IMG/VR virus record: IMGVR_UViG_3300013102_000046
Span: 1-41,867 of that record
Strand: one strand, 5' to 3'
Source: a virus
DNA length: 41,867 nucleotides
In this document: in pieces, positions 21,041 through 41,830 of the stretch
How the letters are laid out: every line of letters begins with the position of its first letter
Numbering within the stretch: position 1 is the stretch's first letter
Translations under genes and position numbers: made by a program
Notes under the pieces: model-generated
Databases searched by the model: none
The model's input: the letters and a program-made list of their open reading frames with translations, nothing else
What the model was told of the DNA's origin: nothing

Positions 21041-23098
21041 GTGCCAGACTACGCATACGATTCCGAGCTAGTAGCGGATCCGTTCTCATTCCAGAGGGCA
21101 GCCAACTCTGCGATCACGATTTACGATGCGAATGACGCGGCTGAGGCATCGCCCCTGGCGCTTAAGGACCTCAAAGGACTGGCTTTGCCTAACCCATTGA
21201 CGTCCAGCGCGGAGGCGTTCGTCCCTGCATTTGTTGCCGGTACAGCGCAGGTCAAGATGGTGGGCGGTGGCCTTCGTGTTGTGCGCTCCAGTTTTCAAGG
21301 CGTACGTGACGAAGCAGTGGCCGCCAAGCTTGCCGCTGAGGAGGCCGCTTCCGATGCTGCGGAAGCTGCGGCGCATGCCCAGGCCCCGACAGATGTGCAG
21401 GTTGACGCAGGCGTGGCCAGGGCGGACATCCCCGGGCAGATTGGGCAAGTACTGCCCCCACTAGTTGCGCCGATTGTTCCGCCGCTCGTGGCTCAAGCCA
21501 TCGCGAACGATCCAACTGTAGCGAACTCGGCCGCAACGATGGCACAGTCGGCCACCGGCCTGATCCCGAAGTGGAAGGCGAACACGGCATACGCCGCCGC
21601 GCAAATGGTAGTGGCTCCCTCCGGGGACTTAGTGACAGCCAAAGTGGCATTCACCTCAGGGGCTTCTTACTCTGACGCGAACTGGAACCTTTCGACAGCG
21701 GCTTCGATGGTAGCCAGCTCCCTGAAGAACAAGGGCGTCCTTGCTAATGGCACGGATATCAACACCCTGCGAGACACGGGCATCTATTACGTTGCTTCCT
21801 CAACAGCCGCGGCGACCATGCCCAACCTGCCATTCACGACTCCTGGGCGAATCATCGTCACGAAGGACCCCGGGGCGACGCTGGTAACCCAGAACGGCAT
21901 CGGAATCCCCTTGACCGGCGGGAACATCTCGCTCTTCACCCGGACTACCCGGTCCGCCACTCTGTGGGATTCTGGGTGGGAGTCCGACCGTCAGGTCAAG
22001 GGGGCCTTGCCTGACGGGACGAACCTAACGACGTTCGCGACGGCTGGTACATGGATCATCACCTCAGCCGCCTCGGCCGCGACCATGAGTGGCCTGCCGC
22101 AGCTCGACGGGGTAACAGTCGCCAACGTGGCTATCCTCCATATCTCCACGTACCCAGGGATTAGTGCAGGCGAAGAGGAAATCACGGTTTACGTGGCTGA
22201 CGGCAACTACGCGAAGTTCAGCCGCGTCCGCCGTATAGCGTCGTCTTGGCCTGGCTGGCAGCACGACAACCCTGCCCCGCTGCCACCTACCGTCACAGCT
22301 GTAAGCGACTCGGGACTGGCCCACACCGTCCTGATGGATAACTTCACCCAGAAAATGGGTGGCATCATCCTGGTGGACACACCAACAATCGCTTTTAGGT
22401 TCGATCACGGGCTGGCGAACTTCAACAACTTCGTCCGCGCAATCTTCGAAGCCTTCAACTGGAAATACTCCCTGGCGCTTTGCTCTGGCCAGTGGGACCG
22501 GGCGGAAAACCTTGGAGTCACCCCATCCACGGTGAATGCCTGGGTGCTCGCCGGACTCGCCGAAATCTGGAACCACACCAAGGACCACGGATCTGGCGAC
22601 AACTCCGAGGCGGCATGGCAGGCTGCAATCCTTGACGGACTTCGTGAGTTGGAGTCGCAGATCCCCGCCGCGGCCGGAAAGATCTTCGGCCTGGCACCTC
22701 CTGGTTCTGCCGGCACCAACTTCGGCGGCTTCATCTTTGGCCAGACTCTTGAAGAGTTTGTGGACTCCGACGGAATCCGCTTCATGTTGCGGCACCACCC
22801 CATCGTGGCTGGCTACCTGGCAACAGAGAAGCGCGTTCAAGATGGCAGGCCCCGCCAAGGGATGGGCCACCGAACGATGGATACCTTCTCTCTCTCGGAC
22901 GTGCAGACGTACGTGGAGCAGGCGAAGGCCACGAAGACGGCTATGCAGTTCATGTTGCACCCGTCCCGTTTGAACACGGCTGGTTATATGTCCACGTCAA
23001 CTCTCACCACGATCATGGATTACGTCAGGGCTGAGGAACTTGCGGGGAACATTAAGGTAGTCAGCCCCTACGAACAGTTGCTCTGCTCTGTCGTCTAA
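21041..23098 (+). CDS. Tail fibre / receptor-binding protein with deacetylase-like domain
   Basis: This 685-residue protein begins at GTG right after the holin. Residues 1-220 are a helical and Pro-rich stalk with an Ala/Glu coiled segment. Two knob-like repeats follow at about 229-320 and 320-420, each with the pattern G-x-L-x-(D/N)GT-(D/N)-(I/L)-x-T. Residues about 445-685 resemble a NodB/CE4 polysaccharide deacetylase: FDHG at 454-457, HTKDH at 512-516 and FMLHPSRL near the end. It probably binds and may trim surface glycan. The usual FDDG is FDHG here, so activity is uncertain. Confidence 0.8.
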   Translation: MPDYAYDSELVADPFSFQRAANSAITIYDANDAAEASPLALKDLKGLALPNPLTSSAEAFVPAFVAGTAQVKMVGGGLRVVRSSFQGVRDEAVAAKLAAEEAASDAAEAAAHAQAPTDVQVDAGVARADIPGQIGQVLPPLVAPIVPPLVAQAIANDPTVANSAATMAQSATGLIPKWKANTAYAAAQMVVAPSGDLVTAKVAFTSGASYSDANWNLSTAASMVASSLKNKGVLANGTDINTLRDTGIYYVASSTAAATMPNLPFTTPGRIIVTKDPGATLVTQNGIGIPLTGGNISLFTRTTRSATLWDSGWESDRQVKGALPDGTNLTTFATAGTWIITSAASAATMSGLPQLDGVTVANVAILHISTYPGISAGEEEITVYVADGNYAKFSRVRRIASSWPGWQHDNPAPLPPTVTAVSDSGLAHTVLMDNFTQKMGGIILVDTPTIAFRFDHGLANFNNFVRAIFEAFNWKYSLALCSGQWDRAENLGVTPSTVNAWVLAGLAEIWNHTKDHGSGDNSEAAWQAAILDGLRELESQIPAAAGKIFGLAPPGSAGTNFGGFIFGQTLEEFVDSDGIRFMLRHHPIVAGYLATEKRVQDGRPRQGMGHRTMDTFSLSDVQTYVEQAKATKTAMQFMLHPSRLNTAGYMSTSTLTTIMDYVRAEELAGNIKVVSPYEQLLCSVV

Positions 23099-23107
23099 GG
23101 AGGGCAC

Positions 23108-23257
23108 ATGGAGGCGCGACTGACCGAGTATTCCAATGCTCGGACCTACGAAGGTGAGGGCGGCCGAACCTACGCCAATCGTGAGGACGCGCTCGAACTT
23201 GCTCGGCGTCTTGCCGACAAGAACCGTGATCTTCTCGAACGGCTCTCTCGGCAATAA
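23108..23257 (+). CDS. 49-residue protein after tail fibre
   Basis: This small gene starts at an ATG after TAAGGAGGG, an excellent ribosome site overlapping the fibre stop. The product is charged and helical (REDALELARRLADKNRDLLE). Its stop at 23255-23257 touches the terminator stem. Function unknown; the strong ribosome site and clean stop support a real gene. Confidence 0.7.
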   Translation: MEARLTEYSNARTYEGEGGRTYANREDALELARRLADKNRDLLERLSRQ

Positions 23258-23294
23258 AAAAAGACCCCCACCCTTAGCGGGTGGGGGTCTTTTT
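23258..23294. terminator. Bidirectional terminator
   Basis: A perfect 16-bp stem, AAAAAGACCCCCACCC at 23258-23273 with GGGTGGGGGTCTTTTT at 23279-23294, surrounds the loop TTAGC. It has an A-run on one side and a T-run on the other, so it can stop both the rightward late operon and the leftward accessory operon. Confidence 0.93.
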
Positions 23295-23456
23295 GTCGTT
23301 GGCGGACATTGCCTTGCGGAGATCGTTTCCGACGGCTTCCCAGTCGGACGGGCGGACGCGCTTAGGCCTCTGAGAGATGAGGCTTTCAGTTGTCTTGCCT
23401 GACAGGTCCATCATCGCGAGAAAGCCTCGCAGCTTACCTACGACCGGCGAAACCAT
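23274..23456 (-). CDS. 60-residue protein, leftward accessory operon
   Basis: This small basic protein contains the segment PKRVRPSDWEAVGNDLRKAM and overlaps the upstream leftward gene by 19 bases. Its last codons are read through the right arm of the terminator and the stop codon lies in the loop. AGGA lies about ten bases before the ATG. I do not recognise it. The coding call is moderate because of its size, but the tandem arrangement and overlap fit a phage gene. Confidence 0.5.
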   Translation of the reverse strand: MVSPVVGKLRGFLAMMDLSGKTTESLISQRPKRVRPSDWEAVGNDLRKAMSANDKKTPTR

Positions 23457-23620
23457 GTGTCCATCTGTTCCTGGGTGACGCCAAGGCTGTGGAGGTCTTC
23501 CATTTCCTTGGGTTCATCGTCAGGCTCGTCTGCTTCGACCGGCTCGGCTGGCGCCTTCCATTCGCCGGCCATGAGGTCATTCAGGTCGGTTCCGTCCGGT
23601 AGGGGCTGATTCTCAGTCAT
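23438..23620 (-). CDS. 60-residue acidic protein, leftward accessory operon
   Basis: This acidic protein of 60 residues starts at an ATG after AGGA and is rich in Asp, Glu and Pro (EPVEADEPDDEPKEME), ending in a short helix. A longer in-frame extension (to 23740) enters the upstream gene and is rejected. Unknown function; the strongly acidic, DNA-mimic-like composition is worth note but not diagnostic. Confidence 0.55.
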   Translation of the reverse strand: MTENQPLPDGTDLNDLMAGEWKAPAEPVEADEPDDEPKEMEDLHSLGVTQEQMDTWFRRS

Positions 23621-23630
23621 CGTCCTGATC

Positions 23631-24311
23631 CTAGCCGAACAGCACTCGGGCGCGAGACTCTGTTGGGTGCAGCTTCCGGCCGTCGTGAAGCCAGACGTTC
23701 TCTTCGTCGTCCTTGGAATAGGTTGCTGCCGCCTCGGCACTCAGGGTGTTGATGTGCTGCTGGACGGCCCTGTCGAAGGAGTCGGCCACAATGTGAGAGT
23801 CATTGAGTTGTGCCGCCGCCTCTCGTTGCTCATTCGCATCGCTGCCTTCTGCCCAGACGTCCCAGATTTTCAAGCCACGTGCTTGGTCCTCCGTGGGCCA
23901 CAGTCGCCGCCCCATGGCGTCGTCGGGGTGCTCGAAGGATCGCTTGTACCAGCGACCCCCCTGTGTGTGAAACAGGGTTGACGGGTTTTCGCCCTTGGGC
24001 CCGAGGAATTCCCGGCGTCCTTTGAATGACCCCGCCAGTTTGTCAACGGCATCGAAGAAGCTTGCGGCCTTCAAGGGTTTCTCGTTGAGTTTCTCAGCTT
24101 CACCGATGCCCGCTACGGCCTCGACCCAGATGTCCCACGCTTGAACTTCCGGCTCTGCATCAATGAACCGTTCGACCATTAGGGTTCTTGGCTTTAGGGG
24201 GACGCTATGGTCGGAGATCCACCGACCACGACACGGATTACCGTCGGGATCGACCATCCCTGTGACCACTACTCCTGCGGGGATAACGTCGTTCTCTTCG
24301 TAGTCCGTCAT
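23631..24311 (-). CDS. Protein of about 90-residue tandem repeats, unknown
   Basis: This 226-residue protein, counted from the ATG at 24311 that follows AAAGAGAGAG, is built of two and a half repeats. Trp31, Trp121 and Trp207 mark unit starts (GRW, GRW, NVW); LKIWDVWAEG and VQAWDIWVEA recur 91 residues apart, and SFFDAV/SFDRAV 94 apart. PTE-x2-AR is shared by units two and three. No known fold was recognised. An earlier in-frame ATG at 24338 lacks a ribosome site. It is between the PIN-like gene and two small genes in one leftward run, so it may share a function with them. Confidence 0.7.
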   Translation of the reverse strand: MTDYEENDVIPAGVVVTGMVDPDGNPCRGRWISDHSVPLKPRTLMVERFIDAEPEVQAWDIWVEAVAGIGEAEKLNEKPLKAASFFDAVDKLAGSFKGRREFLGPKGENPSTLFHTQGGRWYKRSFEHPDDAMGRRLWPTEDQARGLKIWDVWAEGSDANEQREAAAQLNDSHIVADSFDRAVQQHINTLSAEAAATYSKDDEENVWLHDGRKLHPTESRARVLFG

Positions 24312-24383
24312 AAGTATTTCTGCTCTCTCTTTTTGCATCTGGATGTTACTTTGCGATATCGCGCCTTGCCCTCAAGATGCGCC

Positions 24384-25670
24384 CTACAGTAGCCCGGACA
24401 CCTCCAGCTGAGTTCGCCGATCAGCGAGATGGCAGATGTCACCCCTGATCTCATTGGCTTCCCTCTGCAAGTACTCAGCTTCTGAACTGCCCGGGCGGAA
24501 GGTCATAGCTTCAGCCTCCAAGGCGCCGGCCCTTGACTCAACTGCGTCAATTTCGGAAACAACCTTCGCGTGGTCCACTCTTACAGCTTCTCGAAGGGCG
24601 TGCCCCATGGATGCTTCGTCAAGTTGCCAACCCTGCGCAAGACCGTTTTGGAGGCTTTGTCGGGCAGCTGCCATCGCGACAGGGCTTGCTCCGACAGGAT
24701 GATTCAGTGAGACCTGTCGCAGTATGGACTCGACTGTGAAGTCTTGGGCGGCGGCGTGGGCCTCTCTGGCGGCAGCTTGGGCATCGGCAACGACAGCCTC
24801 CATCTCCTGCAGCGCTGCTTCGATCTCCGCCTGACGGTCGTTTCCTGCGGTCTCGTGGAAGAGCCGTTGGTAGAAGTGTGCGCTTTTCGTGATGAGAATG
24901 TCCTGTCCTGTCTCTTCACGAAATTCCTGTATGAGCTCTGGGCGAGGGAGCGTCGGGTGCAGCTTCATCCACCAGTCTTCCTTGCCATCCTCTGTTACGA
25001 AGATGACATCCTTCTTCTCCTGGGTGGCACGATCCATCAGTTGCCTCCAGAGAACGTAATCGCCGTACTTCCGATTGCCTGGTTTGTCCTTTATGTCCAT
25101 ATAGCCCGGAGGTATCTGCTCTCCAAACCGCTTGGATCCCTCCTTGAACAAGCCATCCAGCCGTTGCCTCGAAGGCTTGTCTCCAACGCGGCCATCGAAC
25201 AGCTGAGTGATTCGATCCAAGACCGTGTCCGGCGCCTTGATGCTTGTCAGTTGCGCAATGGAGTCAAGTTCTGCAGTCAGTTCGTCACGATAGACGGTGA
25301 GCGCGTTGATCGCATCTGCTTGGCTCTTCGAGGCCTTCAATCTAGATTGTTTCTTGAACTCGCTCAGCTCATTGATGACAGACTTGATCCGGTTAGCGCG
25401 TTGCTGGTGAGCGTCGGTCTGCCTCGCCCTCTGCTTGTGTGTATTCCGGTGGAACTCCTCTGCGACCTGGTAAGGAATCCACAGCCGATCTTGGCGCTTC
25501 GAAAGCGCATCGAAGTGCTCCGCGGCGGTGGATTCTTGCACGTCGTAGAAGAACAGCAGGAGATTCGTGTCAAGGGTGATGATGCCCTCGTCCCAGATCT
25601 TGTCGATCTCTTCTTGGGTGGGTTGGTGGTAGCCGCGGAACAGATCGCGCAATGTGGTGTCCTCCATCAT
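24384..25670 (-). CDS. PIN-like domain nuclease (PIN_8 type)
   Basis: This 428-residue protein, counted from ATG 25670, has a PIN-like RNase domain: Asp34 in ITLDTNLLL, WIPYQVAEEFHRN with Glu71/72, KYGDYVLW with Asp204, and FVTEDGKEDWW with Glu227, Asp228 and Asp232 match the PIN_8 layout of acidic residues that hold metal ions. Between them is a long helical insert, and the C-terminal third is coiled coil. The frame extends upstream to 25820 but that overlaps the divergent gene. No clear ribosome site. Probably an RNA-cleaving accessory gene, possibly phage exclusion; that role is inferred. Confidence 0.8.
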   Translation of the reverse strand: MMEDTTLRDLFRGYHQPTQEEIDKIWDEGIITLDTNLLLFFYDVQESTAAEHFDALSKRQDRLWIPYQVAEEFHRNTHKQRARQTDAHQQRANRIKSVINELSEFKKQSRLKASKSQADAINALTVYRDELTAELDSIAQLTSIKAPDTVLDRITQLFDGRVGDKPSRQRLDGLFKEGSKRFGEQIPPGYMDIKDKPGNRKYGDYVLWRQLMDRATQEKKDVIFVTEDGKEDWWMKLHPTLPRPELIQEFREETGQDILITKSAHFYQRLFHETAGNDRQAEIEAALQEMEAVVADAQAAAREAHAAAQDFTVESILRQVSLNHPVGASPVAMAAARQSLQNGLAQGWQLDEASMGHALREAVRVDHAKVVSEIDAVESRAGALEAEAMTFRPGSSEAEYLQREANEIRGDICHLADRRTQLEVSGLL

Positions 25671-25748: not shown

Positions 25749-26132
25749 ATGATGGATGTCGTGATGCTCCACCCCCCGTCCGCTTTCCTGCTCGGAGGCG
25801 TCACCTACGAGTTCGTGCACCCGGAGCGTATTGGCCCCGTGGAGGACGTCCGCTCATGGGAACCGGACAAGTGGCCCAAGGTGCACGCGCAAGTGCCACT
25901 AAAGACTGGTGGCAAGGTTGGTGTCTATGCGCTGGCAACACATTGGAACCGAACCCAGATCAGCATTCAATGGCTGGACGATGACAAAGACAGCCTTACC
26001 GTTTGGCTGCCGAAGGACGATGTCCGACCTGTCACTAACTCTGAGTGGGACATCGACGAATATAACCGCTGCCCAAAGTGGCTTCGGGTGGTTCAGTGGG
26101 GCAAAAGGCTTCCAGGCTTTCTACCCGAGTAG
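25749..26132 (+). CDS. Unknown 127-residue protein, divergent from PIN gene
   Basis: This protein has an N-terminal part rich in Pro and Gly (PSAFLLGGVTYEFVHPERIGP), then a beta-like region (KVGVYALATHWNRTQISIQW) and a Trp-rich C-terminus. I do not recognise it. It is transcribed away from the PIN gene; a 78-base gap separates the starts and should hold divergent promoters. No strong ribosome site is visible and several start codons (25749, 25752, 25764) are possible. It overlaps the leftward DUF3263 gene end by 12 bases. Confidence 0.6.
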   Translation: MMDVVMLHPPSAFLLGGVTYEFVHPERIGPVEDVRSWEPDKWPKVHAQVPLKTGGKVGVYALATHWNRTQISIQWLDDDKDSLTVWLPKDDVRPVTNSEWDIDEYNRCPKWLRVVQWGKRLPGFLPE

Positions 26133-26357
26133 TCGGCTGGCGGTCCGCACCATGGATCGACGTCGGGTCTTGAGTAGAGCTACGGTTGCGGGGCGATAGG
26201 CTACGGCAGCTTCTGTTTGGATAAGCCGGTTGATCTCTTGCCAGTACCTGGTCGGAGACATGCCAAAACGTTCCATGGCGGCTGAATCCAGGGAACCCGC
26301 ATGCTTGAAGTGTTCGCCGGCCAAGTCAAGCATGGCCTTGTGTTGGTCGGTGAGCAT
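26121..26357 (-). CDS. DUF3263 family protein
   Basis: This 78-residue protein has the DUF3263 pattern: a helical N-terminus, RFGMSPTRYWQEINRLI as an HTH-like core, then a basic end (VALLKTRRRSMVR). The family is typical of Actinobacteria and their phages, and probably binds DNA, though its role is unknown. It lies between the accessory island and the probable attP, next to the integrase stop. No clear ribosome site precedes the ATG. The identification supports an actinobacterial host. Confidence 0.75.
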   Translation of the reverse strand: MLTDQHKAMLDLAGEHFKHAGSLDSAAMERFGMSPTRYWQEINRLIQTEAAVAYRPATVALLKTRRRSMVRTASRLLG

Positions 26358-26513: not shown

Positions 26514-27956
26514 CTACCAACGAGGATGAACAGTAACCCGCGCTCGCGGGCGTCCTGGCGCTACCTCCACGTGGGTAATGAGCCGCGACAGAAGATCCCG
26601 CTTCGCGTCAATGGGCAGGATGGCCCAGTTTTCTAGGAGGTCGGGGATGAGGGAGGCAGGCGGCCGTGAGGCAACGACCTGGGCGTCCCGGATGGAGATC
26701 TCCAGTTCCGCCCGCTGCCCCTCCAATTCGTCCCGCAAGCGTCGGTAGGTGTCGTCGGGGATTGTGCCGTCGAGCATCTTGTTGGTGAGCTGGTCCATTC
26801 GCGTGCCCAGCTTGGCCAGCTGCTTCCTGAGGTGCCCTACAACGTCGATGGCTATCGTTGCTTGCTCCTCGGCCCGAGCGGCAAGGTCGGCTTCAGCTTC
26901 GACATTTGCCGCCACATCTTCAAGCCAGGCGAGAACGTCAGTTTCGACGGTGCTGGTCATGACGTACCCACCCGTGTGCTTTCGTTTGCTTCCGACGGCT
27001 CCGCATTTGTACTTGGGAGACCTGTTGGCTCCGTAGAGTCCCGCGTGCATGGTTGCTCCGCACGCGCACCTGATCATTCCGGAAAAGAGGTATTGGGAGC
27101 GTTCGCTGCGGCGATTCACGCGGCGGGTTTCCCTGCGTGCCAGGTATTCGTTCCACTCGGCCTCGGTGATCACGGGTTTATGGATGCCGGGTATGCGTTC
27201 CCCATGGTAGGTGATGTAGCCAGCCCCGAAGCCCTGGTCCATGATCCTTCTGACAGTGCGATCCGACCACAGCCCGTCATTAGAGACGCCGTAACCTGTT
27301 GACGGCCTGGTCGGACCGTCATTGAGCCACTTCACGAGTGAGTAGATCGACTGTCCGGAGAGGTAACGCCGGTAAAGCTCGGCCAGTATCGGCCCGGATA
27401 TTGGATCAGGGCTGAATCCTGCTTCCTTGGTGTACTGGTAACCGAAGCGTGGCTTCCCGTTGGCGGGAATGCCGGCCTTCACGCGCCTGGCATGGGATTC
27501 CTTCCACTGCTCCCCCATCCTCTCTGACTCGAAAGCGGCGAGCTCCGCAAGCATCCCCCGGGCGAACCTGCCTGAGGACGTCGTGGTGTCCATAGGTTCC
27601 GTGGCAGACTCCATGCGGCCGCCGATGCCTTCGACACGGTCAACGGCGATTGCCCAGTCTTTCCGGTTCCTGGATACGCGGCTGATCTTCCAGACAACCA
27701 GGACGTCGGCTGTACCGGCTTCGATCATGCCTATGGCACGCTCGACCTGCCGGCGCTTCCAGAAACGTCCAGTCATGTCCAAGTCTGTGATCGTCTCTAC
27801 GATCTCGTACCCGTTGCGCTCGCAGTGCTGTTCGATGGAGGCCAGCTGCAGCTCCGGGCTGATCATGCCGTCTCGTTCTTTGGATACCCGAATGTAGGCG
27901 ACGGCCCTCTGGGGCGCGTTTTGGACAGCCCTAAGGTGGGCCCTTTGTGTATTCAC
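26514..27956 (-). CDS. int: Large serine recombinase integrase
   Basis: This 480-residue protein catalyses phage integration between attP and attB. The catalytic domain shows YIRVSKERDG with the nucleophile Ser25, VVWKISRVSRNRKDWA and RMGEQWKES; the recombinase domain follows (GYQYTKEAG), then a zinc-ribbon region with CACG and a later CG, and a long coiled coil (about 350-440). The start is GTG at 27956, with no strong ribosome site. Length and domain order are normal for the large serine integrase class common in actinophages. Confidence 0.95.
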   Translation of the reverse strand: MNTQRAHLRAVQNAPQRAVAYIRVSKERDGMISPELQLASIEQHCERNGYEIVETITDLDMTGRFWKRRQVERAIGMIEAGTADVLVVWKISRVSRNRKDWAIAVDRVEGIGGRMESATEPMDTTTSSGRFARGMLAELAAFESERMGEQWKESHARRVKAGIPANGKPRFGYQYTKEAGFSPDPISGPILAELYRRYLSGQSIYSLVKWLNDGPTRPSTGYGVSNDGLWSDRTVRRIMDQGFGAGYITYHGERIPGIHKPVITEAEWNEYLARRETRRVNRRSERSQYLFSGMIRCACGATMHAGLYGANRSPKYKCGAVGSKRKHTGGYVMTSTVETDVLAWLEDVAANVEAEADLAARAEEQATIAIDVVGHLRKQLAKLGTRMDQLTNKMLDGTIPDDTYRRLRDELEGQRAELEISIRDAQVVASRPPASLIPDLLENWAILPIDAKRDLLSRLITHVEVAPGRPRARVTVHPRW

Positions 27957-41072: not shown

Positions 41073-41396
41073 ATGTCCAGCCGAGGCGGTGAGTCTGACG
41101 TGAACGGTTTGAGCATCCCCGCGTGGTCAGGCCGTCGAGCCGGTGAGGCGTTACTCAAGGTCAAAGCCGAAGGGCGCCGCAAGAACACCGACTGCTGCAT
41201 CTGCAAGCAGAGTATCGACTACTCGCTGACCTATCCGCACGAGCAATCGTGCAGCGTACAGCACCTGAAGTCGCGGAAGCTGTACCCACAGCTGACGTGG
41301 GACCCAAGCAACTGGGCTCCAGCTCATTTGTCCTGCAACAAGGCAGCCGGCCCAGGCGAAGACCTCGGCATGGGCGTGATGTCCGAGGACTGGTGA
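41073..41396 (+). CDS. HNH endonuclease near right end
   Basis: This 107-residue protein has CCICK with Cys41 and Cys44, VQHLKSR with His64, and HLSCNK with His85, Cys88 and Asn89, the HNH layout. HNH proteins next to the ends often assist terminase in cohesive-end cutting (as in HK97 gp74). ATG 41073 follows the terminator without a clear ribosome site; GTG 41100, after AGGCGGTGAG, may be the real start. Its 3' end is repeated in the next gene. Confidence 0.85.
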   Translation: MSSRGGESDVNGLSIPAWSGRRAGEALLKVKAEGRRKNTDCCICKQSIDYSLTYPHEQSCSVQHLKSRKLYPQLTWDPSNWAPAHLSCNKAAGPGEDLGMGVMSEDW

Positions 41397-41830
41397 CCAT
41401 GGCCCGAACAGTTGTCGTGCTCTGCGGCCCACCGGGTGCCGGCAAGACGACAGCGGCCAGACAGTCCGGTCTCACAGTGTTTGACCGTGACGATCCAGAG
41501 TGGACAAGCGAACGCCAGTTCACCGACGCGCTAGCCGCAGTCGGCACCGATCCGAAAGCCAACGCCGTTGTCATCCGAACCGGAGCGACATCGGCAGCGC
41601 GAGCCAAGGCAGCCCAGATGGTCGCCGCGACCCACGTCTTCCTACTGACCGCCAGCCAACACGAGCTGACACAACGCATCAGGCAACGCGACCGAGCGGA
41701 CAAGGTCAACACCCTCATTGGTGTGAAGACATGGTTTCAACGCTTCGACCGAACCGACGGTGTCAGGGACTTCCCCGGCTGGTCGAGGATCCACAAACCA
41801 GACCTCGGCACCATGTCCGAGGACTGGTGA
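41361..41830 (+). repeat. Shared 3' end of the last two genes (direct repeat)
   Basis: GACCTCGGCA at 41361-41370 and ATGTCCGAGGACTGGTGA at 41379-41396 recur at 41801-41810 and 41813-41830, differing only by a six-base (two-codon) shorter spacer in the second copy. Both copies are at gene ends and code for DLG...MSEDW. The identity at DNA level suggests a fairly recent duplication or a conserved DNA site near the terminus. Confidence 0.8.
41399..41830 (+). CDS. P-loop kinase-like protein
   Basis: This 143-residue protein has Walker A GPPGAGKT at residues 10-17, FDRDDPEW as a possible metal-binding acidic segment, and a later RQRDRAD helix with basic residues as in small nucleotide or polynucleotide kinases. 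A longer in-frame start (41249) lies in the HNH gene; ATG 41399, two bases after its stop, is chosen. It ends in the same MSEDW residues as the HNH gene. It is the last gene before the right end. Confidence 0.75.
   Translation: MARTVVVLCGPPGAGKTTAARQSGLTVFDRDDPEWTSERQFTDALAAVGTDPKANAVVIRTGATSAARAKAAQMVAATHVFLLTASQHELTQRIRQRDRADKVNTLIGVKTWFQRFDRTDGVRDFPGWSRIHKPDLGTMSEDW

Follow-up and report, generated by a model that had tools for sequence, protein, structure and literature searches.

A PIN_8-family nuclease gene in a variable cargo slot of an Arthrobacter-type temperate phage: a candidate single-protein defence gene

Gene layout of the island and its slot

The stretch of DNA analysed here (the window, 41,867 bases) is a virus record from an Arthrobacter-type temperate phage and is near-complete. 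The match to Arthrobacter phage Cole begins with the first base of each genome and recurs at the right end, where window positions 41084-41408 align with 41467-41793 of 41834 in Cole; with both ends matched, the window is close to complete. Its lysogeny side carries a serine integrase gene (26514-27956, minus strand; PF00239, 1.4e-28; phrog_95, 1.7e-100) and repressor-like genes. Beside this lies an island of four genes, all on the minus strand, in the order PIN_8-family nuclease (24384-25670), 235-residue repeat protein (23631-24338), acidic 60-residue protein (23438-23620, an open reading frame with its ATG at 23620 and its stop at 23438-23440) and basic 60-residue protein (23274-23456). The four read as a single operon of coupled genes: only 10 nt separate the repeat gene from the start of the acidic gene, which has AGGA ahead of it, the basic gene overlaps the 3' end of the acidic gene, and the final codons of the basic gene extend into the hairpin of a terminator. 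GC content is 56-60% in the island vs 62% in the genome. The terminator lies at 23257-23292, where a GC-rich hairpin whose two strands each have T-runs (-31.1 and -32.0 kcal/mol, z ~ -6.7) forms a strong bidirectional intrinsic terminator at the common end of the late operon and the island. The initial annotation had placed four leftward genes between a late terminator and the lysogeny module; all four are present, the gene layout agrees with that position, and the terminator is real and also bidirectional. A promoter scan found a single weak site, fewer than chance would give, and scans for Rfam families around the island and for tRNA genes across the window were negative.

To the left, the slot is bordered by the tail protein gene that ends the late operon (21041-23098, plus strand; phrog_11373, 8.8e-138), which has a homolog in the same place in phages Kumotta and MargaretKali and is followed by a 49-aa open reading frame at 23108-23257. 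The right border, placed by flank comparison, is a backbone gene of 127 aa (25749-26132, plus strand) conserved in 55 Arthrobacter phage records; its homologs are frequently accompanied by a DUF3263 helix-turn-helix gene, as here (26121-26357, minus strand; PF11662, 2e-17; orthologs in Faja, RadFad and Seahorse). In Kumotta and MargaretKali the tail-gene homolog is followed by a single rightward gene and then, ~1 kb on, by the homolog of 25749-26132; in the window the same two landmarks enclose 2.65 kb and the four leftward genes. Other Arthrobacter phages carry different leftward cargo between their late genes and their integrase/immunity genes (the 25749-26132 border gene being present in only part of the phages compared): a membrane protein, a lipase/esterase and a hypothetical protein in Cole, QuinnAvery, Nandita, Zaheer, Ryan, Gusanita, Bauer and RadFad, with Popper similar; a large membrane protein in Elesar, Maja and Zucker; and hypothetical proteins in Faja. 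By this comparison the island is cargo in a known kind of variable slot, whose near-empty state is seen in Kumotta and MargaretKali, and the earlier suggestion that cargo sits here between late and lysogeny genes is borne out.

Such slots have precedents. Mycobacteriophage lysogens are described as expressing defence genes from a variable region between the lysis and immunity cassettes, and Gordonia phage lysogens from a comparable central region (PMC7542560, PMC6426596, PMC6426606). The island likewise consists of accessory genes between late and integration/immunity genes that differ between relatives. As those accounts present them, Butters gp30/31, Sbash gp30/31 and CarolAnn gp43/44 resemble the island in their site between lysis/late and integration/immunity genes, and in varying between close relatives. 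They differ from it in that their defence was proven experimentally, whereas a defensive role for the island is predicted from sequence, and in that the passages describing them mention no PIN domain.

The PIN protein

The PIN protein matched PF18476 (PIN_8) with 1.2e-55 and 189.4 bits against a cut-off of 26.1, over profile positions 1-225 of 227, and phrog_9788 with 1.4e-61. By these matches it is a PIN_8 member; nothing excludes membership, and its first assignment as a PIN nuclease holds. When it was aligned with 37 proteins from viral contigs, D34, E72, D204 and D232 were invariant across all 38, a diverse set, and the PPGxxD and KxDW motifs were also kept (residue numbers refer to the 428-aa ATG reading; 6 is to be subtracted for the TTG start). 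Asp34 and Asp204 had been proposed as catalytic acids; both are in the invariant set, together with Glu72 and Asp232. Two starts are available, ATG 25670 (428 aa) and, six codons inside, TTG 25652 (422 aa). The latter is preceded by a perfect GGAGGA at 7-nt spacing; the closest PIN relative, in a prophage of Arthrobacter sp. MYb23 (53% over residues 7-298), is also TTG-started at that point, and the family N-termini begin there. For these reasons TTG 25652 is likely the true start. Together, the full-length frame, the invariant catalytic set and the good Shine-Dalgarno sequence argue against a neutral passenger heading to loss, a reading that the accessory slot and the near-orphan state of the partner reading frames would fit but that we regard as highly improbable.

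AlphaFold2, given the 38-protein alignment, returned a confident model (pLDDT 89.6). In this model the core (~ residues 30-262) has the alternating strands and helices of the PIN type and is split by an antiparallel coiled-coil arm, a long helical hairpin at 67-141. A predicted C-terminal helical module follows (277-427; helices 277-323, 330-345, 352-388 and 396-427). The coiled-coil C-terminus first read from the sequence agrees with the modelled helices from 277 on, and its description as sensor-like is supported in so far as the module is helical in the model and, across the family, variable as in a sensor. Among viral structures, the best fold match of the model (E 0.0046) carries the annotation 'PIN like domain'. 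Searches of the PDB with the PIN protein, both by sequence and by fold, gave no credible solved relative, so RNase activity is predicted from the PIN family.

We also compared the protein with known PIN systems. No PADLOC model matches it, and only one of 38 PIN_8 relatives had any PADLOC match (PDC-S06, 2e-4). The CRISPR-associated CARF-PIN effectors gave a weak PADLOC match to the PIN part (E 0.022), and Pfam and PADLOC scans found no CARF domain in the window protein. VapBC modules have a PIN-domain nuclease in common with it, but differ in size, in gene order and in having a VapB-like antitoxin. This bears on the idea of a toxin-antitoxin pair for prophage maintenance, in which the PIN protein would be a toxin checked by the acidic or another small protein. 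Although PIN toxins are typical of VapBC modules and the same operon encodes an acidic 60-residue protein, the supposed toxin is the first gene, is 428 aa long and lies two genes from the acidic reading frame; the VapC-type profile PF01850 reached only E 0.13, below its cut-off; and no antitoxin domain was found in the partner genes, the two small proteins among them. Furthermore, most PIN_8 relatives stand apart from other genes of their strand: at 67 of 109 PIN_8 loci, with genes called by a simple script, the 60 bp on either side of the PIN gene contain none. We therefore consider a toxin-antitoxin pair quite unlikely.

The repeat, acidic and basic proteins

The repeat protein, whose start is possibly the internal ATG 24311, is indeed built of repeats, as first thought: it consists of two diverged units of ~80-90 residues (local score 52 vs a shuffle mean of 25, with 1 of 1000 shuffles as good). 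Its domain pattern is WDIWxEG...LNExPIxAESFDDAV...RLxPTExxAR, and each unit is separately matched by outside relatives. Two of these, from Micrococcaceae, hold the domain singly: one adjoins a phage-type lysis peptidase (L140:1492-1764), the other lies beside a host gene (L141:1498-1773). The L140 protein had weaker matches in phages Phabio, 201phi2-1, Summit and Sixama. An unnamed domain of ~85 residues (W..W.EG...LNE.PI.AESFDDAV...W...RL...E..AR..FG), duplicated in the window protein, is common to actinobacterial loci and large Pseudomonas and Stenotrophomonas phages. Neither 395 Actinomycetes genomes nor the viral contigs gave a match to a profile of the repeat domain, run with no positive-control genome, and structure prediction of the repeat protein from its single sequence gave pLDDT 35. 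The basic protein is related by tblastn to Arthrobacter phage Gusanita gp36 (60% identity, E 1e-6), where the arrangement differs; for the acidic protein no relative was found.

Do the four genes form one system? The initial annotation had seen in them a possible set of effector, sensor and inhibitor and had proposed their co-occurrence elsewhere as a check. None of the repeat, acidic and basic proteins was found in any other PIN_8 locus fetched, whether from plasmids, viral contigs or host genomes, so that the co-occurrence check gave no association and the proposed set is unsupported. Even the MYb23 prophage, which carries the closest PIN relative, has none of the three partners, and relatives of the repeat and basic proteins occur in phages that have no detectable relative of the window PIN protein. 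A single four-protein defence system, in which the PIN RNase would be the effector, kept in check by the acidic protein, while the repeat protein would act as its sensor or partner, could draw on the single coupled operon with its own terminator, on the possible need of a PIN nuclease for an inhibitor, and on the presence of the repeat domain in unrelated phages, which may mean that it binds something general. On the distribution of the partners, we judge such a system very unlikely.

PIN_8 distribution, C-terminal variation and proposed role

PIN_8 relatives were found in 63 plasmid records, 73 viral contigs and 38 genome loci, with a 9-member alignment used to search the viral contigs and a 2-member alignment the genome contigs; single-protein searches of the viral contigs with the PIN or the repeat protein gave no match. 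The window protein shares all the catalytic acids and the split layout with this family, whose members occur on plasmids, prophages and chromosomes and are annotated in plasmid records as DUF4935 or 'PIN-like domain-containing protein'. Genomes with a PIN_8 score above cut-off numbered 23 of 297 in Actinomycetes, 9 of 298 in the family of Arthrobacter sp. MYb23 and 0 of 14 among reference genomes; on these counts the presence of PIN_8 is patchy, the pattern of a mobile gene. Chromosomal neighbours, as scored by PADLOC and Pfam with no control set, include protein kinases, AbiEii and a restriction enzyme among many others.

Tyrosine integrases are present in 31 of the prophage records, and in 14 of these records the distance from the PIN gene to such an integrase is at most 3 kb (3.9 expected; 0 of 1000 random placements), although this permutation overstates independence because there is kinship among some of the prophages. 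The integrase-near genes are often convergent with the tyrosine integrase. From their settings, PIN_8 genes are recurrent prophage cargo, captured repeatedly. In the MYb23 prophage, too, the PIN gene is opposed to the lysis genes. The same prophage carries, between its lysis genes and integrase, a second accessory gene that by eye encodes an AAA/OLD-like ATPase of 598 aa (L010:1736-3532).

The distribution also bears on whether the PIN protein might instead serve the lytic cycle or the control of lysogeny, as an RNase with which the phage processes or degrades host or own RNA. It is a nuclease domain in a phage gene, and many phages carry RNA-processing enzymes. However, the PIN gene runs against the late operon; it appears dispensable, because relatives leave the slot nearly empty or fill it with other genes; and its homologs are common on plasmids and chromosomes, whereas tblastn with the PIN protein over 50,697 annotated phage records gave no match. 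A lytic or lysogenic role of this kind is unlikely in our judgement.

Within the family, the C-terminal 112-200 residues diverge far faster than the nuclease core. Of the pairs whose cores are 40-50% identical, only 15% have recognisably similar C-termini. The C-terminal half of the window protein differs from that of its relatives, which is the usual state in PIN_8. The proteins L041 and L012 are 65% identical in their PIN cores and not recognisably similar in their C-terminal modules, a contrast which suggests that the C-terminal half has been replaced. Near-exact tandem repeats of 16, 17 or 25 residues were seen in the C-termini of 6 of 82 PIN_8 proteins (L012, L013, L028, L008, L065 and L069). 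At the DNA level the units are 48 or 51 bp in 5-7 copies, and in L028 and L012 they match at 95-96%, which indicates recent expansion. Two of 38 scanned PIN_8 proteins end in a PcrA/UvrD Tudor domain (PF21196, best 5.5e-14); judged from C-terminal sequence these are probably L030 and L064. In PcrA this domain contacts RNA polymerase, and its presence on a PIN_8 nuclease hints at transcription complexes as a target. Finally, the rapid change of the C-terminal half would fit a trigger or targeting module caught in an arms race.

A published precedent exists for a PIN protein that acts by itself. DS-3, an E. coli one-protein PIN defence reported with DefensePredictor, is described as lost on catalytic mutation, as having no antitoxin and as thought to be self-inhibited (PMC13092281), and thus shows that a single-PIN-protein design can defend against phage. 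Compared by description, DS-3 and the window protein as read here have in common a one-protein design, a PIN domain whose parts are separated in the sequence, the lack of an antitoxin and a proposed auto-inhibition. In the PIN_8 relatives no partner is conserved and most of the genes are solitary, so that a PIN_8 protein may work without a partner. A blastn search of E. coli genomes with one Klebsiella PIN_8 core gave no match, a single probe that does not decide kinship with DS-3. Literature searches on PIN_8/DUF4935 in defence turned up no publication that identifies the family as defensive. The island had been put forward as the home of an undescribed system; PIN_8 itself is already catalogued (PF18476, phrog_9788) and DS-3 is published, and the word 'undescribed' is correct only in part.

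Altogether, our preferred reading, which we hold at about even confidence, is that an accessory ('moron') operon occupies a variable slot here, and that the PIN_8 nuclease, with a putative function in defence, is most likely the one part of it that does the work. The constant nuclease half, the fast-changing C-terminus and the lack of conserved partners suggest a single-protein device, which probably protects the host cell from other viruses. The PIN gene would be expressed from the prophage, and the coiled-coil arm and C-terminal helices of its product may keep the protein inactive. Some component or effect of an incoming phage would then touch the fast-evolving C-terminal module, upon which the metal-dependent PIN centre would cut RNA (tRNA or mRNA) and so bring growth, or the production of phage, to a halt. 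The three genes downstream would be separate passengers on a shared transcript, at most accessory; a joint function would, however, also agree with their tight coupling to the PIN gene in this phage. More tentatively, and with somewhat less than even confidence, PIN_8 as a whole may be a widespread single-gene anti-phage system, undescribed so far, in which an RNase half that is constant and self-inhibited is joined to a trigger half that evolves fast and can be exchanged.

If this is right, the annotation 'PIN-like domain' would stand for a mobile immune gene that prophages and plasmids carry across bacteria, and it is in the variable C-terminal half that the trigger being sensed should be sought. 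For this phage family, the near-empty slot of Kumotta provides the reference state against which cargo can be compared.
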